This document shows positions 27,864 to 63,126 of a DNA stretch of 64,000 bases, one piece after another. Made by a program: the position numbers and the translations under genes. The stretch's first letter is position 1. Each line of letters starts with the position of its first letter. This stretch comes from Cliona cf. orientalis (Eukaryota; Porifera; Demospongiae; Clionaida; Clionaidae): positions 8,354,225 to 8,418,224 of the forward strand of contig OZ005690.1 in the NCBI GenBank assembly GCA_963930775.1. Direction: 5' to 3'. The notes beneath the pieces are model-generated. The model saw only the letters and a program-made list of their open reading frames with translations. It ran no database searches and was not told the origin of the DNA.

Positions 27864-28335
27864 TATTTGGGGGAGGGGGAGTGTATGATGTACATAACTG
27901 CAATATGCTACATTATTATTCTTTTTACGTTTTAATTTTATACTAGTACTTAACCTGTTCATTGTTTCTATGTAGGTGTCATGATGTTAAGGCTAGAGGC
28001 CCGGGAAGGGGGTCCAGAATTATTAATGCCATCATGGTCAGTGTATATTTCCACCAACCAAAATCCTCTTAATTAAGATAATAGTGATATTATGTAATTG
28101 GTGCTATAAGTTTAAAATCCTAAATCCTAGGACCAAATTATTTACATTGAGTGTGTGGAAGAATAACGTGTAATTGATAATATTAGTATACCATAAGTTC
28201 AAATAGGATAATCCAAAATCCTAGATAAAAACCGCTGATATTTCTCGGGTGTGGCCAACAAATACTTTTGCGCATGCGCACTAAAGAAGTTCAGCACTAG
28301 CTGTCCACGCGAGTCTTGGTTCACTGCCAGTTGCG

Positions 28336-31034
28336 ATGCCGTCTGATGTTGTACTGAAGCGGGGGATGGATCAGGTTGAAGTGGATTCCTCCAGGGTGAC
28401 AAGCGAAATTTTGAGAAGGACCTTCAGGGTAAGACCACTTAGTACTCGGCCTCGTCCCCACTGAGCCTGAGCAGAGGACGAGGCTAGCCACCAATACGTC
28501 ATACCCTAGTCTCACGGATTAAAGGGTCTGGCTCCGCAAAACTATAGTCATACCCCATCAGTGCGCTATACTAGAGCTACATATAATTTCATTGCCTAAT
28601 TGAACTATCAGTGTGGTAGGGCATGGGGTGAAATCATGTCGGCACTGTAGTAGTCTTGTGCCCAGCTAGCCTCATACCCAGACCCGGAAGGAGGAGGAAA
28701 GAGGGCCTGGTGCATGTACCTATTGCATGCGCATGTGCCAAGAAAACCTGGGGTGCCACAAACGATTATACGCTTGTTCGTCCTCCTCCCGCAAGCTAGG
28801 GTACGAGGCTACACCAATATGACATAGTACCCTACTCTTTCCAAATAAGGCCCACCTACTCTTGAAAATTGCCAAGGAGCATTGTAAACACTGTATTTTA
28901 TTGGCCATGCCTATTAATATCATCTGCTGTAGGCCATGTGCTTTTTGCTCATATGCACAACTTAGCACAATACAGGGTCAATATGCGTATGCTTGCTGCC
29001 GCTATAACTCGTCTCTATGTGGACAGATATTATGTATGCAATCAGGGGCGGCTGAGGGTAGGTCGGTTTGGGGGGGCAATCAGGCACCCATAAGTTTTGT
29101 AACAAATGTTATATATTTAGTACAGTTCAATAAACGGAGCTTGTAGCTAGCTAGTTAGGTCCCGGCACCTTCATAGCTATCACATAATAATGAACTTGAA
29201 TTGATTATAGTAGATGAAATACAGTATACATGCATCAGAATAATAATGTAGGTCTAACTCTAGCCATCCAGTTTGGGGGGGCAAGGCCCATTGATCTTAA
29301 CTTTGGGGGGGCGGTTGCCCCCCCTGCCCCCCCTGTTCCGCCTCCCCTGGCAATGCGCGTGGGGTATGTACTGTGTACTCTAGAGACCTATTTCTTTATA
29401 TTGGCAATCAGTGTATGTATTTCAGTACATTTGCAGTTACATGTGGCTATGTATAATTGTTGCAATAAACATGCAGGTTGATCCATCCGAAGTATGGTTA
29501 AGGGCAGAGCAGGATAACCGAGCCTTTTTTCCAGATGATTCCGGCCACTTCAATCTCCCTGATGCAAATCTATTGTTTGGTGCTGTGCTTTTTGTGGAGG
29601 GATCAAACTTGGTGTCACCACCTAACCCACGTCTGACTGTTTCTAGCACTGCACAATCATCTGGTTCTGGTGCTTCTGCCTCCTTCAATTCTAATCCTCC
29701 CCCACCTGCTTTTAAGTCTGTGGTCCCCAAGCAAGCCGTGCCCAAGGGTCCAACAGCTAGTGTGAAGATTATCCGTGCTAAGATGGAGAGATCCCGGACT
29801 GGAAAGGTCGAATTTACTCAAGAAGCACAAATGCATTTAGATGTAGCAGAATCTACGGCAAATGTGCAGCATGTTCTTAGTGAGGTGCAGCAACGCTGGG
29901 GAGATCAGTATGTACTTGTTACTATTGATGGGTTGGAACTGGAAGACTGTGAAGGAACTAAAGGTAAGATACTCTAGATTATGATAGAAATTTTGACTAA
30001 TGTTGAACACTTTCACTCCGTAATTACCATAGTGTTTTTATGATTGGTTTTGTGATGATTGATCACAAAATAATATTATTGGTGGGAGTCACTGTAAAGG
30101 TACATCACACTGTACCACATCCCCTGTATATAGCTGTATGGTACACATGGTAAAAGGTCGTCAATGCAGTGCGTATGCAGTCTACATCACATTGTAGTAC
30201 TAGCACATTATGCAAACGCAATTGCTCTGCGTGTATATATGTGGCTCCTATATGTACTACCTACTATAATAATATAGTGGGAATCTTTCGAGGGAGAAAA
30301 TTTCTATGGATTGATAGCTAAAAGTGAGCATTTCATGGAGAAAACTTGTCCAGAATGCGTATGGATGGGTGTGGCACGGGAAGTAAAGTATAGCACACTT
30401 TCCCATAATTATGCAGGGTATTCAAGAGTTATAATATTTATCTATTGTGACTATAGGTCTAAAATTCTGGAAATCTCCAAGGCGTAAAGTTTTTGCCGTC
30501 CCAGTAAAGGATTTAAAGGGCAAAGCACGCTCTACCAGCAAGAAACGTCATTGCATGACTATAGATACAGACTCTGACAGTGATGAACCCACACCTAAAA
30601 GATTGAAGGATGATACTGTAATGAGGGTTGAACGCATCGAGTCAAATGTTGAAGATCTTTTGCAGGAAGTGGACTCTATGAAAACGTCCATAAATGATAT
30701 CTTGCACCTGAATGAGCGGTCAAAAGTGCCAGTTGCACTGCAGAGACTCATGCGGGATGCATTTCAATGCAAAATATGCCTATGCACTCCAATAAAACCC
30801 CCAGTGATCATGTCTAAGTGCTGCAAATCAATATTGGGGTGTGAAAGGTGTATCAATGAGTGGTTTAATGGCCCTGATGCTCTACTGAAGACCTGCCCAG
30901 CTTGCAACACGGAGCGTGGCTACAGCGAGACATTAATGCTAAGAGGTCTCGATAGTTTTCTTACGGAAGTGAAAAGTGTGATACAGACAGAAGATGAGAG
31001 GGACGAAGAACAGCTCCCAGCCATTAATAATTAA
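28336..31034 (+). CDS. Transposon-encoded 385-residue protein with RING-like zinc domain
   Basis: Three exons: 28,336-28,428, 29,477-29,963 and 30,457-31,034; the lengths sum to 386 codons including stop. Exon 1 starts MPSDVVLKRG. Exon 2 has a possible folded segment (VDPSEVWLRAEQDN) then a Ser/Pro linker (SSGSGASASFNSNPPPP) and an acidic region. Exon 3 carries a basic segment (KSPRRK, SKKRH), an acidic DTDSDSDEP tract with PKRLK as a likely nuclear signal, and a helical stretch predicted as a coiled coil (VERIESNVEDLLQEVDSMK). It then has a zinc domain: CKICLCTP, CCKSILGCERC, and CPACNTERGY. The spacing resembles RING or U-box-like fingers. Probable role is a nuclear partner of the transposase or a ubiquitin-ligase-like factor. 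Start chosen as the only ATG giving consistent phase. The long first intron holds MITEs, so splicing must skip them. Confidence 0.8.
28667..28811. mobile_element. TAGCCTC-ended MITE-like element in intron
   Basis: Ends TAGCCTCATACCC and GGGTACGAGGCTA, with an inner GGGCCTGGTGCATG block and GCATGCGCATG. Related to the 397-bp MULE-like MITE at 5.8 kb. No target duplication could be confirmed. A shorter relative (CGGCCTCGTCCCC to GACGAGGCTA) lies at about 28,443-28,488. Confidence 0.5.
29043..29349. mobile_element. MITE with CAGGGGCGG ends (307 bp, 5-bp direct repeat)
   Basis: Starts CAGGGGCGGCTGAGG and ends CCGCCTCCCCTG. G-runs lie near the left end and C-runs near the right end. GCAAT flanks at 29,038-29,042 and 29,350-29,354. 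It is inserted in the first intron of the transposon accessory gene without touching its splice sites. Confidence 0.65.
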
Positions 31035-31634
31035 AGATCTCCTGACCGCGGTCGATCATGCTACAGTTTTCCTCACAGTATGTATCGTATTATGATAATA
31101 TGTTATGCTGCCTCGATCACATTAGGCTCATATTGATCATGACTCGCTTTAAGAATCGATTCTTCTGATGATCACGCATATTACTATTATTATACTTTAT
31201 CAAGCTCTTGCAATCATGTATACAGATCATCGTGTGCAAGGATGCATAGCTATAATGTTTTGTTTTGGATGGAGCACGGAACTTAGCTATAACTGAAATG
31301 TGCATTACCATTACCATGTTAGCTACACGCATAAATATCAACTAATGATTATGATTCATGCAATCATGAACAATCATAATAATATTATTGCATTGTTCAT
31401 CATTGGATCACTATTATAATTATCAGAGTATAATTTATTATTATGTAGAGTAGGTACGTGTGACGCTGATATTATAATAACAATTAAGTAATAATGCAAG
31501 TCAAACAGTGATAATAATTGATAAAATCTATAGCTAGTCAGTGCATGCATGCATGACATTAATTGTGTTAGTATTATTTTGGAGAGACATGTAAAGTGCA
31601 AAGATAATGCATATCAGTGAGTACTATAAGAAAG
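31035..31634. other. Shared 3' region between the two convergent transposon genes
   Basis: AT-rich, no open frame worth calling. Both genes end into it, so it should hold both polyadenylation signals; AATAAT-rich stretches are present on both strands. Confidence 0.5.
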
Positions 31635-33302
31635 TCAGGTAACAGTGCTAAACAAGCTTTGAGTTATCTGAATGAAGTAAAGGAGACCATCACAAAACTC
31701 ATTATCGTCACCATTGACCAGTTTGTGGAAAAAAGGATCAAATTGTGGATATCTGTAATGAAATTCAGCTTCCCGCTGCTGAATGAGGCATGTATTATTG
31801 CTAAGAGGATCTTCGCCAAATACACTGAAATCGGTTAGGCGGCCTCCTGCTGCACTGTACTGTCTTACTGCATCGTCTGAAGATGGAATCAGATGGGGAT
31901 CAATTCTTGCTACTTGATTGTTGGATGACATCAGGTGGTTGGGAGTACCACGTGATGGACAACCTGGTCTAGCACCTACATATTATTATACATGATTATA
32001 ACAATGATAATGATCACTGTACAGTGTCATGGTTTATGCATGTCATTGACCTGGAACTGGATGTTCATTCCATGCTTGAACTGCAAGCTTAGTGCCAACA
32101 GAACAAACTCGGATGGCAAACCATGACACACAAAACTTGTGCATTGATGATTCCATATCTATCACACCAAATTCTTCCATTTTAACCAGGCAAGCCTTCA
32201 CAGGATAGTTGACTCGAGTATTGATCTCCACCCAAAATCGTTCAACAGGATGGTTCTAATCATGAAATAATGCATGATAATATTATTATGTAAGCGATGA
32301 AGAATTAGCTATAGGTACCTGTCGTGATGTTGATTGCATGTGAGGAGCTCTATTAGTATTTGTCCGGAATTGTGCTAACATCTCCTGGACATACAACATC
32401 AGGTAAAATTCTTTTCCATGGTCTACACGTATTTGATCCCATAATCCATGAGTTAGTGTCAACTCTCTGCATAATATTAAGCATTATGCATACATATCAG
32501 TACACGCAGACATTACAATAATATTGATCACCCCGTGTTGTGAAGTACATAATATTGCTGTGATGATTATTACCTGAAAAGGTTTTCATAAATCTCAATG
32601 TTGTTCTTAATTGGCATGGTAATAAATGACACAACCTTACCACTGTACCCATCTCTTGCACATACATGAGTGACTCCATACATGACCAGCTTTTCATTCT
32701 GGTCTATGTGTACTTTGTGACCAAAGTATTCGGCTGAGTAAGGAACTGGATTCAGCTGCTTGGCAGTTGAATTCATCCGCTGATGGTGGTATGGTGGGTT
32801 GGTACGCCTGAGTGATTCTCCTACTCTCACTTGGCTAACTCTCAGACCCTGTGATGCTAACAGGCCTGTCATGGTCTTTCTACCGTATACTGGACCTACC
32901 TGCATGTTTTAATAATATTTTGAGACTAGGGATGTGGTTATACTTTATAATGATTATGCGTGCATGCAATGCGTGCGTGAAGAAAGGGGTGGAGCTGCAT
33001 AAAAAGCTCAGCATGATCACGGCTGCATGCAAATTATTATAATAATATGGTAAGCGATCAACACGTAGAATGCTTCTTACCATGGCAGTAGCAGTTGATA
33101 CAGCGACATCCAAGCTTCGATCATCAATGCGTGAAGTCTTGTGTATGCCCTTGTTGCCACAAAATCTCTCGATAGAGCGCACGCTAAATCCCCTTTGCCC
33201 AGGATAGCTTTCCATCAGAAAGGTACTGATTTGCTTGTGTGTCCATCGCTTGTTCTCTATCTTATCCCGTATAAGATCTTCAAAACCCTCCAAAGCACTC
33301 AT
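31635..33302 (-). CDS. DDE integrase-type transposase (413 residues, five exons)
   Basis: Exons: 33,302-33,081, 32,899-32,574, 32,466-32,319, 32,255-32,051 and 31,975-31,635. The phases join perfectly to 414 codons including stop. The N-terminus (MSALEGFEDLIRDK, then RWTHKQISTFLMESYPGQRG and RSIERFC) looks like a helix-turn-helix DNA-binding region. Exon 2 has VGPVYGRKTMTGLL and an RVGESLRR segment, then GHKVHIDQNEKLVMYGVTHV, with a likely first catalytic Asp. Exon 3 gives IRVDHGKEFY (second Asp). Exon 4 gives NHPVERFWVEINTRV (Glu). This is the layout of an rve/IS3-type catalytic core. All exons are free of stops, so the protein may be functional. It should cut and join the transposon ends in the nucleus. 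Confidence 0.85.
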
Positions 33303-33697
33303 TATTAACAGGGAGCAGGGAGCTGTTATACAAAGACTCGAGCGCAGTTTCGCAGCTCGAATATGCGCGGGCTTTTTTTAGCCCCGCCCACATAATTCAC
33401 ATAGCGCGATTTTCAAGTAACAATTATAGTTTGGTAGAGTTTCTTTAATCCTCAGACTAAGGTTTATAGCCACTCGGTTTAATAGTGTAGAGCTCCATGC
33501 ATCTGGACGTTAGTACCATAAACTACATACATGACATCTAGAAACATAGCTAGTTACCAGGATCTAGGACATAAAACAATCAAGGCTTATCCTATACTTA
33601 GGATTTTAGGATTTAGGATTTATATCGCTAATTTTATATTACTGAATTTCTATTTGTATAGGAATTCATTTGGTGGAAATATACACTGACCCATCAT

Positions 33698-47475: not shown

Positions 47476-50400
47476 CTATAATTCCGTATGATTATGCTTA
47501 TATTGATCCGATAATTCCATAATAGTGTTGCGATAAATATGAACTTCCTTTAAGAGCCGTACATACATATCTGGCTGTTGAAAACGAATTTCTTTTCTAT
47601 TGGCCTGTTTAGTGAGATTCTCATTCACGTTTACCAGAACTCCTTCTACACTCTTTGTACTTTTTCGTGCCAGACGCGCAAATTCTTGCATCCAAGCACT
47701 TCCATTTCTATACATGAATGAGTAGTGGCCTGGCATTGTGGCACAGGCAAGGAGATAGTTGCCTTCTGCCGGGATAGTGTCCTTGGTGATTATATCTAAA
47801 GCTAACTTGGTGGAGACCGTTGCAGTCTCTAAGCTTCCACGACAAGCGTCTATCAGTAGAACTTTGGGAACTTCACCAAACTTTCGAATCGAGGAAGGTA
47901 GAAGTGGCTCTAAAATATCAGTCTCTATGTTCACTCTGCTTTCATCTTGCATCTCTATATATTTATTGTTCAAGCCATGTCCAGAAAAGGCAAAGAGAAT
48001 ACACTCATACTTTTGAATAAATTCTCGACTTTTATGTTCTTCTAGACTCTTAACTTCATCAATTAAGTCAGAGATTATTTGATTATTAATGTTATGTAAC
48101 CAGAGGACAATGAAATCAGAGTGAACTAATGTCTCGAGGAGATTATGTCCATCCTTACAAGTACCAAGTAATGGTGAATTGGTGTGACTGTAGTCATTTG
48201 TGATGATTATTCCTAGTCCACGAGCCGTGGGATTTCCAATTATACATTCTGAAATGCCTATTTACACATACACATACACACATACACAGGAAATCAAATT
48301 CTACATTCTGAAACACACACACATAGCTACACAGGTAATTATCTTCAAAAATAATATACTAGTCTCATTCCCAGATCCCCTCCTCAAGGAGGGAAACGGT
48401 CTGGTGAACTTGCAATTGGGCCGATCGATCTTGTTTTGTAGCATCATAATGCACCAATAAGGCCATAATCTGATTGGTCCCTATGGCTACATTTGCATGC
48501 ATGTGATCGAAACTTGCAATTGGTTGTAAAATAAATCTTGAATCTGAGTGATCAGAGAAATTGAAAAGCTTATAGGGTTTCATGGGGGGGGGGAAACTTG
48601 CCCCTCCTGGCTGCGCCCCTCCCCTCCTTGACAGTAGCCACTATCCATACACGCAATATAGCTATGTAGCTACAAATAAAAAGTTTGAATGGTGAAAGTG
48701 TCCAAAGCGGTAGTTTTGCTCATTTTAACCCCAAAACTACCTGAAGCTTCATATGCTATGCGTGGTAGGAGACACATTCCACATCCTTGCAACATTTGAC
48801 TTAAAATGGAGGGGAACCAATCAAGTGGATATTACTTACAGGCTTTCCCCATCTGAGTGCTCAGAAGCCTACGGTGGCCGAGAAGGACACTGCCGTGGTG
48901 GCCAATTGCAAAAGCCACCGTTGGCCGCCGAAGGGCCGCCCATCGCCTGCGGCTGGCCGCGCCGCCGCGGCTTAGCCGCGCCCACCAAATCTGTTTGAAA
49001 ATTGATTCTCTAGCTATGAATGGTTAACTAGACTATTATCCCGCACGCATGCGCAAGCGGCCAGTTTGTCAGTCTATCGTCCACACGATATGCATAGGCA
49101 TCTGGGCACGGTGGGTTATAACTGCGATAAAATACAACAAAGAAACGGACTCGGCCTCATTTGGATTCGATTGATACTGGCTAGCTACAGGGGCTAAAAT
49201 GCTTGTTGGTCACGCCTACCAACCACGTGCTTTCTGCCCATGCGCACGCAGCACTAACTCACCAGACCACGCCCACTGCAACGTTTAAGCGTACGCTTTC
49301 GATCTCTGCTAAGCACAAGAACGTGATAAAGAAAGGGTGATATACGTCATATAAACCCTTCCCTCTCGATACTCCCACTGCAGCGTTTAGTTAGTTTAAT
49401 ATTTTCTGACAAACACGCGGAGCGGTGAATCCCCGAGTAAACTCAACGATGTAGACCACACCTAACGTTGTCCAGTTAACCATTCGTGAACTAAATAACG
49501 ATTTTATACTTTTGGTGGGTGCGGCCGAGCAGCAGCGGCCAGCTGCAGCCAATGGGCGGCTCTTTGGCGGCCAATGGCGGCTTTCGGGCGGCCCCAACGC
49601 GGCTTGGGCCGCCGCGGCAGTGTCTCTCTCGGCCACCGTAGAAGCCACCAGAAACAGTCTCAGAAGTTGAAACATTAAAAAAATTTCTGGGGGAGCATAC
49701 CCCCAGATCCCCCTAATATAATCAAATTAGTAGCTAAGTACTACATTATTCTTTGCACATGGAAAATATTATACCATATAGTCTTTGCCATCCCCGCTTA
49801 ACTCTGTAATTGTCACGTTTGTCCCCCCCCCCCCCCCCCCCCCCCCTTGACGAAAATCCTAAATGTATAACTCTGGCTTATACAGCTACAGCAAGTATAG
49901 CGATGTTGCATTCCTGCAGTAAGGTTATCACATAACTGAGCCAGAGCTGCGATCTCATTATTGCATGGAAATTCCTCAGCGCAGGCCCAAGGATTCTACT
50001 ATTCTACCCAGACCCATTTCCTCATTGGAGGTGGGGTCTGGAGGCAAGACTAAAATATATATGTAGTCACATGATTAGTACATCTATATAAATTATAGTA
50101 CCTTTTGTGCACACAAGATTCATGTTTAGTTCTCCAGACAGTGTAATACCATTACAATTGAGCAGTCCAAAATTATCATACTTTGGGATATGATTTCTCA
50201 TCTCTAAAATTAATACAAGATTATTATAGTAATTGAAATACTGATATTATGGTCTGATCGGGTTCACAGCTATAATATTATGGTTTAAATTAGCCCATTG
50301 GGCTGCATGCATGTCCATGCTTTGATCATGTTAACCCTCGGTACATGCGTGGGAGTTATGTAGTTATAAATGCACATAATATCAACATTATGGTGAGTGT

Positions 50401-53400
50401 GTTTGTCTCTTACTGTGCTAGCTGCCGTATGCCTTGTTTCAATTGAATACAAAGTGCCATGGATTATCTATGCTTCTTTTATGCTAATGCATTGCATAGC
50501 TTTCATTGGAGTTAAGGCGATTGCTGCATGCTGACTTCATTGAGCTCTCAATGGACAAGAGAGTGACAGTAATGCATCGCTTATTTTCAAGAAAACGAAT
50601 GACGTTGTGTAGGTCTACCCTAATTTTGTTCATGCATGTGTGTGGCTATTATTCGAGGGTGGCTACTAAGTTTTTTCGCAGAGCTCCATGTGCAGCCACT
50701 ATTTGAGGGGGGCTACTAATCTGGGTGTGGCTTCTATTCAAATGAATGCATTGGAGTGCCGCAATAACCCTCACCACTACATGCATGCATGACTCATGTG
50801 CATGTATTGCATGGCTCACTGTACATAATATGTACCGTACTCGCTCTAATTATTCGAAGATTCTAATAGCCCGAACGGCAAGTTTAAGTATTTTATTTCC
50901 TTCCTAATTCGTTGAACATCTTGAATTTCAAGTTTTCTCATCCGCTCTAAATCAACCGAACGGCCACGCGGTACGGAATGGCAGGAGCTCGAGACAACTC
51001 TTCCACGTTCATCGAAGAGTGTGGCTACCACATCTTGGACAGCATATAAGAGCAGAAAGGTAACATAGACACAGACGGCGATCACTTTCCGATCGCTCCT
51101 GAGAGCACAGCGATACTGAGAACTCTAGAGCTGACAACGATAAACCTATAGCTAGTTGGACACCGACTGCTGTTTCTTCGTCGCTATAATAGTGCTTTCT
51201 ACATTTGCACCTGGTCCGTTATATTTACACTTGAACAAACCATTGCCCGAATTTATTTACTTTCTATTTAACACCGAACGGCGATATTAATAATTATTTT
51301 TGGCCGTTCAGATAATTAGAGCAAGTACGGTATGTTTGTTAAGAGTACTGAACTGTGTACATACCCTTCACCTAAACGTGGTTATGGTACTATTCAAGTC
51401 TCTTCATGATCTAAGAGTAAGAGGAAGGAAGCTGTCTATGTCACTGTATAAACTGAAAGCCTCTGTGACATACCTAAACTGAATTATGCACTTGAGAGCG
51501 ACTGCCTGTTTACACTGTCACTGCATTGACAACTGACCAGCAAAGCACAGAATGGCCAAGGATATATAGCTGGGGCAGGCCCGTATGCAGCCTTTCTCAA
51601 ATGGACTATGATGGCAGTTATGCTATGGGCATTACCCATAGCCCACCTATAGCTAGGGGGGTCTGGGGGCACACTCTCCCAGAAATTTTTGGAAATTTAT
51701 ATAGACTCTTTGAGGGTGATTCTGAGGCATTCTGGATAGTAACAGGCTTTTTGTAGGGCTCAGCCACCTTCACCTTTAATGAGTAAATACCCTGTGCTGT
51801 ACTATTCTCTGTTCATACTAGCTAGTTATAGTAGCTAGTTCTCTTCTGTACTATACATACTGCCATAGATCACGTAGTCTGATTCTATATTATTACATAG
51901 CTCTTGTACATTATTTTGGAAAGCAACGCATAGCTAATATGTTTGTGTAAAGAAGCATGTAAGTTACACTTACATTGTTTCCAATACTATGCTTGCTAAG
52001 TGGCCAAAAAAGAGGGTTTATTCCGAACCCCAACCCCCCTGCCTGTGAGGTAAGTGCCATGTAAATACAGACGGGCAACAGGTGCACACTACTACACCAC
52101 TGGGTAGGACGGGTAGGACTTAACATAATAATGTCCACTATTCCTTTATGCTGGGTATACCTCGAATGCATATACTTCCTCTCAGATGACCCTTACCATT
52201 TGGGACGGATTAATGGATAGATGGAAGGACGGACAAAAATTGACAAACGATTGTAGTAACCCTCCATCTATGCTTTGCGACGAGAGTTAATAAATACAGT
52301 AATTTAGCTATTACCTGAAGCGGTGCCTGTATGTCCATGGTGTTCTGGGACTTCACCAACAACTGATTCTCCATGATTATCTGTAGTGGTTACAATTATA
52401 GACGTGTACCCCAGCAAAAAATTCATAACCACATACACATACACACATGTACCCCAGCAAAAAAAGTCATAACCACATACACACACACACGTGTACCCCA
52501 GCAAAAAAAGTCATAACCACATACACACACACACGTGTACCCCAGCAAAAAAAGTCATAACCACATACACACACACACGTGTACCCCAGCAAAATATTAT
52601 AGCTAATATTATTATTAGGTGCTCCAATATATGCAACTCTAATTAAAAACGCCTATATTTTCAGGAAACGACTCTATCTACCCAAGTGAATAAAAATGGT
52701 CATAACTCCACTTGTGATCAACTTTTTCCTTGAAATTTGCACCATTGTATTGAATTTCAGCATAGACAGAGCTATCTATCCATGCTAAAATCTCACTATT
52801 AATGAAAAGTTTTCAAGGGTCTCAGAGCAGGTCACAATTAAGTTTTTAGTTACCGTATTTCCTCAATCAGACGCCGCGGCTACTATTAATTTCGAGCTTT
52901 GCTGGAGTGCGGCTACTAATCGAGGGCGGCTTTTATTAATTTGAAGCAACACCTCTTGGTGACATTGACACAATAGACTCGATTTTTAGGGACTGATTTT
53001 CGAATATTCGAGATAGATGATCGATAAATAAGCAGCAGAACCAAGCCAAGGACGTTTTCTGCCATGTTCTTGCCTCGAACTAACGATCGTTCATGGCTTG
53101 CTATCGTGGCCACGCCCACTTAATTGTGTTTGCGCATGCGTGCGGCTACTATTCGAGGGCGGCTACTATTTCTTTCCGCAGAGCTCCAAGTGTGGCTACT
53201 ATTCGAGGGCGGCTACTAATCGAGGGCGGCCTTTATTTGAGGAAATACAGTATTAGGAGATCACAAACATGCGCACACACACACACACACATCACACATA
53301 ATATTATAGTAAATTATGCATGCACATAAACTCTTGAATCAGGTGATGTGTATACTTCATTATATTGAATTCACACCTACCATGTTCATACATTGCTTCA

Positions 53401-53745
53401 ATAATCGATGCTAAATAATTTAACTGAGCCTGATGTAGACACTCCACTATATCTGCCCAAGAGCCGCCATCCGAAACTGCATAGTAATATTATTACTATA
53501 ATAGTTTAATATCATTAATAATAATTATGGACAATCACCTTTCAGCCACTCGTTGAAAATTTCCTCTACTATTGGTTTCACTTTGTAGTTATTGCTATCT
53601 TTAATAGCATATAGCCTCCCCCCATCTTCATCTTTCAAAAGACAGATAGCAAAAATGCTATAATCTGCTCCAATCCTTTGAAGGATATTCTCATTCCCTT
53701 CCTTTGTTTTGAAATGTTGTAAGGCTGGCAGCGATGGCCGTTCAG
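47476..53745 (-). CDS. Caspase (peptidase C14) with N-terminal death-like domain, copy B
   Basis: Five exons with matching phases: 53,745-53,539, 53,476-53,381, 52,380-52,315, 50,203-50,102 and 48,248-47,476, giving at least 414 residues; the first exon(s) are missing upstream. Exons 1-2 end in KPIVEEIFNEWL and SWADIVECLHQAQLNYLASIIE, the C-terminal helices of a death-fold domain. A short linker follows (EVPEHHGHTG). The last exon is the protease: NPTARGLGIIITND, then LFAFSGHG with the catalytic His, LLIDACRGS with the catalytic Cys, and a p10 part with MYRNGSAWMQEFARL and PDMYVRLLKEVHIYR. DACRG replaces the usual QACRG. Likely an initiator-type cell-death or immune protease recruited through the death fold. 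No frame lesion was seen. Confidence 0.85.
48859..49665. mobile_element. GC-rich inverted-repeat core of copy-B insert
   Basis: Arms about 48,859-48,990 and 49,510-49,665 share CTACGGTGGCCGAGA, GACACTGCCG and GGCCGCC-rich blocks in opposite orientation, ending inward in GCGCCCACCAAA-like sequence. The whole insert relative to copy A spans about 48,690-49,800. The interior has no recognised gene. It lies in the intron just upstream of the caspase protease exon. Confidence 0.7.
50833..51332. mobile_element. TA-flanked MITE with TACCGTACT ends (500 bp), copy B only
   Basis: Left TACCGTACTCGCTCTAATTA, right (inverted) TACCGTACTTGCTCTAATTA. A TA duplication fits a Tc1/mariner-type element. The copy-A site near 22,695 is uninterrupted. 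A 79-codon minus-strand frame (51,085-50,846, LFDERGRVVSS) is unrecognised and could be a transposase relic. Confidence 0.8.
52400..52592. repeat. About 43-bp minisatellite, roughly 5 units (copy B)
   Basis: Units of TCATAACCACATACACACAC and CGTGTACCCCAGCAAAAAAAG; the last three are nearly identical, indicating recent expansion relative to copy A. Confidence 0.85.
52853..53250. mobile_element. TA-flanked MITE with CCGTATTTCCTCAA ends, copy B only
   Basis: Left TACCGTATTTCCTCAATC and right (inverted) TACTGTATTTCCTCAAATAA. The interior repeats GGCTACTATTCGAGGGCGG in many copies. The copy-A site (near 24,550) is empty. Related GAGGGTGGCTACTA fragments occur in both copies at about 22,520 and 50,650. 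Fits a mariner-type MITE. Confidence 0.8.
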
Positions 53746-55174
53746 CTATAGCATAATACCAATGTTAATGCACATGCAATATTCAAGTCATTGTGTTTTA
53801 CGCAAGAGTATTTTAGCAGTAAGAGTGTGCAATTGGAACTTGCATAGTAGCATTCTACTAAGTTAACATTGATATCATTGTCACTCACCAATATTATTGA
53901 ATAAGCTACTAACCATCTATAGTGTACCATAGTCCTCTTTGCAGTTGTAGTAGCTAGCTGTGGTCTGTCAGGCTCAAAGGTTACTCATCTGCACTGCTAT
54001 ACCACCCCTTCTGGCTATAGAACTAAGAAAACTGCTGCTGTGGCTCACCTTAGAATGTTTTAGAAGAAAATTCGTTTGAGATTGGACTGGTAGGGCTGGT
54101 AGTTTGTCTCAAAAACTATCGAAATAGGCATGGTTTTGCCACAAAGTGGGCTTGGGCTTCTAAAATTTCGCACATACTTTGCATGCAAGGGTGTACTACA
54201 ACCCCGCTTCTAGAAATCCTGAATCCGCCACTGGGAACAAGTTTGCATGTAGTTCAACACTCCTGTCTAATCTACTCCTGGTTTTAATCATGTGCTATAT
54301 AGTTGTCCTGTAGGTAGAACTCACTTGATTTTATAGAATCCACATATGAAACCCAACTAGTAACTGAAATGAAAGGGTTAATCATGGTTAGTGTATGCGC
54401 AGCAAAAATCGAATCTGACTCTGAGACTATAATACCAAATAAAATTAATGCAACACATTAAAAAATCCATCATAGATTAAACAGTAAATTAATTTCCAGT
54501 GATTTCATAGAGATGTCAGATTATTTAGATAATCTTTTACTACTCAATTACAGAGTGATTATGCCATGATTTTGTTGCATATTTCTGGTGGTGTCTATTC
54601 CCGCCTATGGCGTATAGATTGATCTACTGCCAGGGTAATAGCTAATACTGGATATTGCCCTATGGCTATGCATAATTCCAATGTCAACGTTTACCTCGTT
54701 AGCGCCACAGTGGAGTAGGAAACGGGGGGCCAGGGGGAACAATTCCCCCTCCACCCCCCCTCCCAAAATCATGTTTGATACATAGTTCAGTGTATATCTA
54801 ATTTCCATTATGTATCAGACTTTCCTTACAAACCCCTGGTTTGAATTACTAAATTACGACCGCTACAAAAGAATAATATTGTGGTCACAAACTTCAGTAA
54901 TCAAAGCTACACCCACAATTTGTATCGGTGGCCCCCACAACATGCGATTGCTTCCTACTCCACTGTGCCAGGATCAAAGGTGGAATGGTAAGAAATTGGC
55001 TGTGTTCTAAGAGAAATCTTGCAGACATAATAAAGTGAGCATATGATCGGTGGTATAATGGTGTGTATAGGTTGGGAAGCATGAACTAACTTAGTTTTCA
55101 GCAATGGAGATAAATCTCAGCCTTGCCCATCCCTCAAGCTACCTCCAGAAAAGTGGGGGTGCTATAGCACACCT

Positions 55175-55178
<4 letters not shown>

Positions 55179-55209
<31 letters not shown>
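55179..55209. repeat. Poly(C) tract, about 30 bases
   Basis: An uninterrupted C run at the edge of a CCTACGCCTATG repeat end. Similar runs occur near 21,090 (G), 21,236, 26,142, 26,567, 40,027, 49,825 and 59,290 (G). Exact length is likely unstable or unreliable. Confidence 0.85.
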
Positions 55210-55210
<1 letters not shown>

Positions 55211-56281
55211 TTCCTACGCCTATGTGAATAGGGCAATAATATTATTATCATGATACTGCTCGTGACAGCTGACTACTATGGGTACCTGACCCAGTGGTCT
55301 GACTCAGACACCACACCTGTATAGGGCTGTCACAACAAGTGCTGTATGGAAGCCATTAGTAGTGCACTCATGCGTAACCACAATTCCCCCACGCTGTATG
55401 TGGTTACTGCACTCATGCAGCTGTCCATACAATAATATAATATTATGAGCACGATACTATAATAATAATATTATTGTAATAATATTATTATACTCATAAA
55501 TATAGCAACCAAGGGTGGTATTACAGCGATTTATATTACAGTACAAAGCACCAGCAGTAAAAACCGCTAATACCACGAGTGGGCATACTATTTGTACTAC
55601 GGGAAGTGCTGATCATGCATGAGGTAGCTACTTTATGTCACAATGTAAACTTTTCCAGACAATTAAGAGAATAGGTCACACAAGCTCCTATAAAAAGCCA
55701 GCCCAGTTCTGCCCGTATTCTATATTATAGTGTAGAGGAAGCTAATAAAGTTTTTATTCAGTGGCTACGTGGAGCTAGCTGGTTTAAAAGTGAGGATGGC
55801 TGGTCATTTGAACCGAGAAAACTTGCTTCTGCCTATGGGGCTCTTGACAAAATTTAATTTTGAACTGCAGCTATAATATGGGGTTGCCACCTACTAGGTA
55901 CCACATGCTACAAACGCACCAGGATCTTCTACAGAATCTGATGTTTACACTAATCGCGAGCTCAACAATGTCATGCAGGTTCGCAAACCAGTTGTAGCTA
56001 CGTATATTATAGCTGCATGGATATCATAGCAAAAAGACCGATATGGCATGGCATGCATATGGCAGCCCGGGAGAGCTGTTCTGCATATTCTGTGGATAGG
56101 TAGCTAGCAGTGTTTTGGATCCTTGTCTAATCTTTCGACAGCCCATGGCACTCCAGCAACCGGAAGCCTATTATGAGGTATTCGTGGTGGCTGTTACTTA
56201 CTAGGTAAAATCTGCAGGAACGCATGCTATATAACATGTTATAGCACGCTACTTATAGCACGGTCTGGGGGACACTTATTA

Positions 56282-56848
56282 CTGTATAGCTCCAAATTTT
56301 TGTGGCACAATATTTTCATGAATTTCGTGATTAATTTTGACTTTGATCACGAAATTTTCCTGACGAAAATTTTTCTCAGTATTACTGTGGATGTGGCTGC
56401 GCTCTGTGTGCACAGCAAGCTTAATTGTGCGTACGTGTAAGAATGCGATACTAGTGAACGTGTGAACTGTCTCAGTGTCTATTGAATCGCTTACTTTCAG
56501 AAAATGAGCAAAAGTCGCCTAACAAATCCACAAGGACCTTTGTCTTAACAACTCCTTCATCTCTTGTATCGACTCCGCCAACAATCACGTTGAAGAGATG
56601 GCCAAATAGACGACAGTAGAAGGCACTAAAGACAGAAAGACTCTTAGAGACGCCCGTATAAGTCTTGTCTATAGTTTCTTTCTCTTCACATTAGCATGCA
56701 CTGTACCAGCCCAACACTGATCCACGTGCAAACATGGTGGTAGATCTAATCACGAAAAAATCTGGCGGTTACGAAATAATTATTTTTATCACAAAAATTT
56801 TCAATCATGGGATTTTCAGTAATTACACGAAAATTTGGAGCTATACGG
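56282..56848. mobile_element. TA-flanked MITE with CCGTATAGCTCC-type ends (567 bp), copy B only
   Basis: Left CTGTATAGCTCCAAATTTT, right AAATTTGGAGCTATACGG, flanked by TA. Copy A has the intact site ATTATTACTTATAGTCACC near 27,650. The interior includes ACGAAATTTTCC-type inverted blocks. No transposase. Confidence 0.85.
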
Positions 56849-57157
56849 TACTTATAGTCACCTCATCCATGCTATGCTTGGTTTATACAACTGGCGGTGC
56901 CTTTGATCTGTATGGCTTTCATACGTAGTACAAGTTTGGCTATACATCATCATAATAATAATAGTGTAGCTATAACAGCCATGACCAGTCCTATAATAAT
57001 TATATATTCATCTCTCGTGCCATATATATATACCCCTTTCCTTTGGATTGGGATCCTTTGTGACATAATAATAATTATAGCTGCAATCATGGATGTAAAC
57101 TTGCATGTTTGTGAACACTCTCACAGTAAACTCAATTTCCCAGGATTTATAACTATA

Positions 57158-57371
57158 TGTGGCAGTCCCAGGTAGAAATCAAAGATTATTCCTAGTCAAT
57201 TTTGACCACTTTTTTGAATTTGAAGCTTCATAACTCAGAAATGGTAGCATCCCAGAACTTCACATTTAGTTTAGAGATACTACAATCACCTTAGAATAGG
57301 TATCTAAAATTTGGGACTAAACTATCAAGAGATGTTAAAAATATAATCGATTTCTACCTGGGACTGCCACA
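57158..57371. mobile_element. TA-flanked MITE with TGTGGCAGTCCCAGG ends (214 bp), copy B only
   Basis: About 23-bp near-perfect inverted ends TGTGGCAGTCCCAGGTAG. TA on both sides (57,156-57,157 and 57,372-57,373). The site in copy A near 33,795 has no insert. Confidence 0.85.
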
Positions 57372-58401
57372 TATTATTATTATTATCTCCAAAACATTAT
57401 AATTAAAATAAAGCCTATAGCTACCCAGTGTGGGATACTCTATTATATTATGTACTGACCCATGCATGATCAACTAGAACAGGTACTGATTATTATACAG
57501 TAGCTATATTATAGCCTATAGAGAGTTAGACTCTAATTATCACAAATACTGTGATTTGATTGGTTAAAAACAAGGGTTCTACTAATTGACTGAGTTACTT
57601 AGAATCTACTTTGAAAGCTATAGTTTTATAGTTCTTTAGGCAACAACATAATATTATAAGAAGTTACTAATTAAGAAACAGCATGCTAGAGTCTAAACAA
57701 GTGAGATACTTCGAATTCAGCCAATGGGATCTAGCTATAGTCTTTAGAATACTTCAGACACTTAGCTAGCTAGCTACTTCGGAATTCAGTTATAGCTAGT
57801 TATCAGTGTCTTCAGTATTCTAAATTCTGTAGATGCTTTGGCTTCAGTGTCTAACTTAAAAATGTCTTTCTTCTTACAGGAGGTAAAGATAATATAGCTA
57901 TAATTACAATGATGAGCTCTTAATAATTATTGGTATCCAGCTACATACACGATAGTCATCACCTATTAATTAATCAACTTACAAATAATCAACACTGCAA
58001 CCAAAGGCTTCATGTTTGGAGTGGCGCGCGAGACTAGCTCACCCCTAGCATTTAGACCACTCCCTATAAGTCGATCCATAGCTCTGTGTTTATGACGCTC
58101 CTCATCTTTCAGGGGGCAAACCTCTCCTACGGAGTCATGCTATTATGGGCATGTCGCGGGCGAGCGCGAGTACGTTCGTCCCCAGATAGGGGGCGGGGTC
58201 ATGGGACGCGCCCATCTCTGCGCATGCGCACATGCGTCAGTCGATCGCGAGTCCCCAATCTGTACATTATTACGTCGTACAACTGCAATATTAAATTTTA
58301 ACCTCATAACATGTACATAGTTTACAATTGTGGTGTGCATAAAAATGTTACTATACAATAATAGAGAGTTGTTTAAAGACTTGTAGATGATGTTGTGTCA
58401 C

Positions 58402-63126
<4,725 letters not shown>

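Follow-up and report, generated by a model that had tools for sequence, protein, structure and literature searches.

Is a two-gene DNA transposon in the genome of the sponge Cliona cf. orientalis a member of IS3EU, and what part might its second gene play? The element occupies positions 28036-33691 (5656 bp) of the window analysed here, a stretch of 64,000 nucleotides (C2:8354225-8418224; C numbers denote contigs of the 216.8 Mb assembly, which has 149), and two convergent spliced genes lie inside it. A preliminary description, made from the letters of the window, had proposed a complete two-gene transposon with matched ends and open spliced frames, and this proposal is borne out. We conclude that the element is very probably a structurally complete, autonomous-type cut-and-paste DNA transposon, and that it belongs to a GGT..ACC-ended lineage which is sister to IS3EU and often has a RING-like partner gene.

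Anatomy of the element

The features of the element, in window coordinates, are as follows.

28030..28035, no strand: target-site duplication CATCAT, left copy (read from the sequence)
28036..28067, plus strand: left terminal inverted repeat, perfect over its outer 22 bp (GGTCAGTGTATATTTCCACCAA)
28336..28428, plus strand: RING gene exon 1
29043..29349, no strand: interspersed repeat of about 307 bp, unrelated, nested in RING gene intron 1
29477..29963, plus strand: RING gene exon 2
30457..31034, plus strand: RING gene exon 3, cysteine-rich RING-like domain
31635..31975, minus strand: transposase exon 5
32051..32255, minus strand: transposase exon 4, putative catalytic E237 (NHPVER)
32319..32466, minus strand: transposase exon 3, putative catalytic D198 (VDHG)
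32574..32899, minus strand: transposase exon 2, putative catalytic D140 (HIDQNEK)
33081..33302, minus strand: transposase exon 1, N-terminal domain, putative DNA-binding role
33660..33691, minus strand: right terminal inverted repeat
33692..33697, no strand: target-site duplication CATCAT, right copy (read from the sequence)

The termini of the element read GGTCAG..CTGACC. The outermost 22 nt of both ends are identical (GGTCAGTGTATATTTCCACCAA) and a weaker likeness extends to about 94 nt, but the 32-nt arms as a whole (28036-28067 and 33660-33691) are only 88% complementary; the ends that had been called perfect are so over the outer 22 bp and not further in. An exact copy of CATCAT flanks the element on both sides. 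Taken alone, CATCAT would be compatible with a 3-bp duplication of CAT. We read it as a 6-bp duplication, as originally proposed, because four related elements show other 6-bp duplications (GAAGAG on C7, ATACCC at 25.6 Mb of C1, GAGGTT on C13 and ATTAAT at 31.05 Mb of C1), which rules out the 3-bp alternative.

The transposase gene on the minus strand comprises five exons and four GT..AG introns, and encodes 413 residues with no internal stop. The preliminary description was exact in its element coordinates, exon counts and protein lengths, and erred in giving the transposase five introns. In Pfam, the protein is matched by PF24764 (rva_4, integrase core) with an E-value of 2.2e-17 and a score of 63.9 bits (cut-off, 26). 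Asp140, Asp198 and Glu237 are invariant in all eight aligned proteins of the same genome, with a spacing of D-57-D-38-E; from family knowledge, we take these residues to be the catalytic triad. A profile of eight transposases matched four chains among the solved structures (8vd6 'CAP REPEAT' at 1.9e-14, 2x48 and two ComA entries), solely at profile positions 5-44. This match suggests an N-terminal DNA-binding domain of the helix-turn-helix type.

The second gene, on the plus strand, has three exons encoding 385 residues, again with no internal stop. The C-terminal part of its product contains the motifs C-x2-C, a CC pair, G-C-x2-C and C-x2-C, and of the 15 rows aligned, several of which represent one place, 12 keep this eight-cysteine arrangement. 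The CC pair is missing from L027 and L047, which are a single place and contain a stop, and L049 is short of one cysteine. A sister protein matches zf-RING_2 at 6.2e-5 and zf-C3HC4_3 at 9e-5, both under the curated Pfam cut-off. We describe the second gene as RING-like, and its product is likely to be an E3 ubiquitin ligase or adaptor. Some of the evidence on the two genes weighs against our conclusion: the splicing of both is predicted only; the window protein itself matches zf-RING_2 below the cut-off, with E-values of 0.14 for the whole protein and 0.042 for exon 3; and a single-sequence AlphaFold model of exon 3 (mean predicted local distance difference test score, 46.4) shows a long helix at 47-87 and is otherwise uninformative.

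The GGT..ACC lineage and its relation to IS3EU

Of the seven GGT..ACC end pairs tested, five, which come from four families, show a perfect 6-bp duplication; a GGT pattern served to locate one of these five. A degenerate version of the end pattern gave fewer matches (98+128) than its reversed control (161+143), and exact or paired sites alone were used. No convincing ends were found for L045-L047 and L049-L054, the last six of which (L053 included) serve here as transposase relatives without determined ends.

Among the duplication-bearing pairs, L043 (C7:8374174-8380247) and L044 (C1:25627436-25633517) are 99.0% identical over 6.1 kb. Because these two nearly identical elements have different duplications, GAAGAG and ATACCC, their family, a sister of the window family, is shown to have moved recently. 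Both have inverted arms of 2.2 kb that are 99.8% alike, with an intronless RING frame of 342-343 residues in each arm, and one intronless transposase in the centre (409 residues in L043, shortened to 340 in L044). L042 has arms of 2.9 kb that are 99% alike, in which the RING gene points outward instead of inward, and its transposase is incomplete. The RING and transposase genes of the C13 family are divergent.

The same genome also contains a complete element with TA..TA ends, at C5:4265879-4273971. It is 8093 bp long, with TATGGCGCGCC ends, perfect inverted repeats of 211 bp and the duplication CGCCCT. The PF24764 core is common to this element and the window element. Three core proteins, which score 272-278 bits against PF24764, group with the C5 element; the window lineage scores 57-94 bits, and the window transposase is 23-24% identical to three in-genome core relatives. 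A tree of nine rows (five lineage, four core) separates the window lineage from the TA..TA-type core clade with a support of 100/100.

According to PMC10045372, IS3EU elements invariably end in TA..TA. The window element resembles IS3EU and GingerRoot in its integrase-like DDE (Asp-Asp-Glu) transposase and 6-bp target duplication, but its termini are GG..CC, whereas those of IS3EU are TA..TA and those of GingerRoot TA..TA or TG..CA (PMC10045372). GingerRoot is set aside on its termini. Ginger1 and Ginger2, which also have an integrase-related DDE transposase, are given duplications of 4 or 4-5 bp (PMC10045372) and are rejected, the lineage having 6 bp in five of seven pairs and none in two. 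Dada resembles the window element in its 6- or 7-bp duplications; it is described as being without terminal inverted repeats and inserting in small RNA genes (PMC3706591), which does not agree with 22-bp perfect ends and five different duplications. KolobokP shares with L043 and L044 a composite-like look, with long terminal units round a transposase (PMC9587614). Its long terminal repeats are direct, however, and the 2.2-kb arms of L043 and L044 are inverted, with a RING frame in each, so KolobokP was rejected as well.

The preliminary description had tentatively named IS3EU. This placement holds in so far as the integrase core and the 6-bp duplication bring the element near IS3EU, but its ends are GG..CC and its transposase lies outside the TA..TA-type clade. 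Given that the ends are GGT..ACC and that the transposase of the TA..TA element falls in a separate clade, the window element is not a canonical IS3EU and is best called a member of a sister lineage. It could instead simply be an IS3EU element with atypical ends, GG..CC having arisen by drift of the terminal bases. The shared Pfam core domain, the 6-bp duplication and the two-gene layout would all fit such an origin, and Repbase may already file such elements under IS3EU. We nevertheless consider it unlikely: all five duplication-bearing pairs, from four families, end in GGT..ACC, the complete TA..TA element in the same genome has its transposase in the other clade, and the second gene differs.

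Several points count against a separate lineage. The tree is built from in-genome proteins, and its rows include none of the named members of IS3EU, GingerRoot or Ginger. Ends are determined for just two of its five lineage rows (the window element and L043) and one of its four core rows (L055). Two of the end pairs tested, one of 17 kb on C3 and the other of 1 kb on C2, are not flanked by a duplication.

Two further observations concern relatives. The genome holds seven further exact TATGGCGCGCCAAACG pairs of the IS3EU type; at three of the eight places the ends are just 1.7-2.4 kb apart, and these three are probably non-autonomous. Outside the sponge genome, a transposase with 40% identity was found in pieces in LWTN01000144.1 (L065), from a Cycloclasticus symbiont bin of a poecilosclerid sponge. 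This was the only one of 73 pattern matches in the prokaryote collection to be confirmed, and none of 18 pattern matches in viral contigs was. A gap of nearly 900 bp interrupts the match, and we therefore read L065 as probable sponge DNA that was placed in a bacterial bin.

Copies, constraint and insertion site

The left 465 bp of the window element have one match in the whole genome, the element itself. The right 389 bp have four: the element itself, two matches at a copy at 22.3 Mb of C1 (L038; 93% and 91%) and a 105-bp end at C5:7003904-7004007 (96%). L038 begins within RING exon 3, so that the left 2.45 kb are missing. It also contains insertions, a segment of it is duplicated, and its transposase frame is interrupted by three stops besides having three gapped codons. 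The preliminary description had named a single copy as the outcome that would tell against it, and the genome searched comes close to this, with one complete copy, one 5'-truncated copy and one 105-bp end. That the window element is the sole complete copy found of its family is a point against our conclusion.

Between the window element and L038, substitutions amount to 2.4% in RING exon 3, 1.5% in the transposase exons, 1.7% in the transposase introns, 5.0% in the intergenic part and 3.4% at the right end. The proportions of synonymous (pS) and non-synonymous (pN) differences are 0.060 and 0.014 for the RING gene, and 0.034 and 0.009 for the transposase. For both genes combined, pN is lower than pS with a Fisher p of 2e-4 (16 synonymous and 15 other changes, unpolarised). 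Both proteins appear to have been under constraint, as far as these small, unpolarised counts go.

It is quite possible, if short of probable, that the window element is dead, its frames being intact merely from young age and its family no longer mobile. The one other long copy is truncated and carries stops, a foreign repeat sits inside RING intron 1, and the inner part of the terminal repeats is imperfect. This repeat, of about 307 bp, has at least 40 other matches in the genome at 76-97% identity (one pair of rows being adjacent pieces), as counted among the best 40 of 421 first-look candidates scored. Against a dead element stand two genes that are open across eight exons, outer ends that are perfect over 22 bp, and the excess of pS over pN relative to L038. 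The recent activity originally claimed is plausible for the window family; it is for the sister family (L043 and L044) that recent movement is shown.

The surroundings of the element contain a tandem segmental duplication (window positions of about 20000-41000 against 47500-62000, in pieces of about 77-95% identity) that covers both element flanks and includes one further feature.

56026..58058, plus strand: diverged paralogue of both flanks, without the transposon, in the tandem segmental duplication

This paralogue, at 56.0-58.1 kb of the window, is not an exact empty site, as about 190 bp round the insertion point are missing from it as well. The simplest reading is that the transposon was inserted after the segmental duplication; imprecise loss of the transposon from the paralogue is the other conceivable history.

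RING-like and HECT-like partner genes

The RING gene accompanies the transposase, while the transposase is often seen without the RING gene: a lineage transposase lies no more than 12 kb from 14 of the 15 RING clusters in the genome, but a RING match lies that near to only 14 of the 31 lineage transposase clusters. Closer inspection revealed weak RING homology at L049, one of the other 17. Some of the clusters without a match may likewise have a RING gene that is too diverged for the window query, or may themselves be decayed.

The IS3EU-type relatives have a different neighbour. The convergent gene of the C5 element matches HECT at 8.9e-5, just under the cut-off, and the convergent gene adjoining the core transposase of L053 does so at 4.2e-8, over the cut-off. 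Genome-wide, 20 of the 110 HECT matches have one of the 58 core rva_4 matches within 5 kb, where 0.31 would be expected, and 19 of these 20 are convergent. The count misses weak HECT genes; the one in the C5 element, for instance, is unlisted in the genome scan. None of the 110 HECT matches comes within 12 kb of any transposase cluster of the window lineage, nor does any RING cluster come within 12 kb of a core rva_4 match. The partner gene is thus RING-like in the window lineage and HECT-like in the in-genome IS3EU-type relatives; the TET-bearing IS3EU elements of fungi carry an alpha-kinase (PMC12730594).

The pairing is far from universal on either side, which counts against our reading. 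No RING match lies within 12 kb of 17 of the 31 lineage transposase clusters, and closer inspection of L050 and L051 found no RING homology. A HECT neighbour within 5 kb is present for 21 of the 58 core rva_4 matches and absent for the other 37, and L052 and L054 have no HECT homologue in the surrounding 7-8 kb. The RING gene might be a mere passenger that takes no part in transposition, as the 17 clusters and the weak RING score of the window protein would allow. We think this unlikely in view of the transposase near 14 of 15 RING clusters, the lower pN than pS between the window copy and L038, and the RING gene that each of the two long arms holds in L042, L043 and L044, with open frames in the latter two. 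The HECT genes of the sister group, moreover, provide a counterpart. We found no report of RING or HECT pairing with PF24764/IS3EU-type transposons in the literature searched, Repbase and subscription journals excluded. The new point is the occurrence of two different E3-type partners in sister lineages, the function of both being putative.

The genomic distribution of these genes is uneven. Among the matches listed, 22 of 31 lineage transposase clusters, 29 of 55 core clusters and 9 of 15 RING clusters are located on C1, the largest contig, beyond 16 Mb (of 37.5 Mb), where 10% would be expected. Reverse transcriptase matches show no such pile-up, 18 of 150 scored lying beyond 16 Mb.

The anatomy of the window element suggests how it might move. 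The N-terminal domain of the transposase would bind the inverted repeats, and the enzyme would make paired cuts at the GG..CC ends. Joining of the cut ends to target strands staggered by 6 bp, followed by repair, would leave the 6-bp duplication. The RING protein might tune the stability of the transposase or remove a host restriction factor, and the IS3EU-type relatives might do the equivalent through their HECT ligase. Tentatively, and as a possibility on which we would not insist, we propose a superfamily-level, GG..CC-ended lineage that is sister to IS3EU and in which ubiquitin ligation is built into transposition, by means of RING here and HECT in the IS3EU-type sister, the two having been acquired separately; the RING gene would then have been drawn into the long inverted arms of two families, in opposite orientations.

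For annotators, GG..CC ends together with a 6-bp duplication offer a signature for a group that might otherwise be folded into IS3EU. If the E3-type partners do act in transposition, these elements would be naturally occurring examples of a DNA transposon that comes with a ubiquitin ligase of its own, and the RING and HECT solutions of two sister lineages would let this role be tested in parallel.

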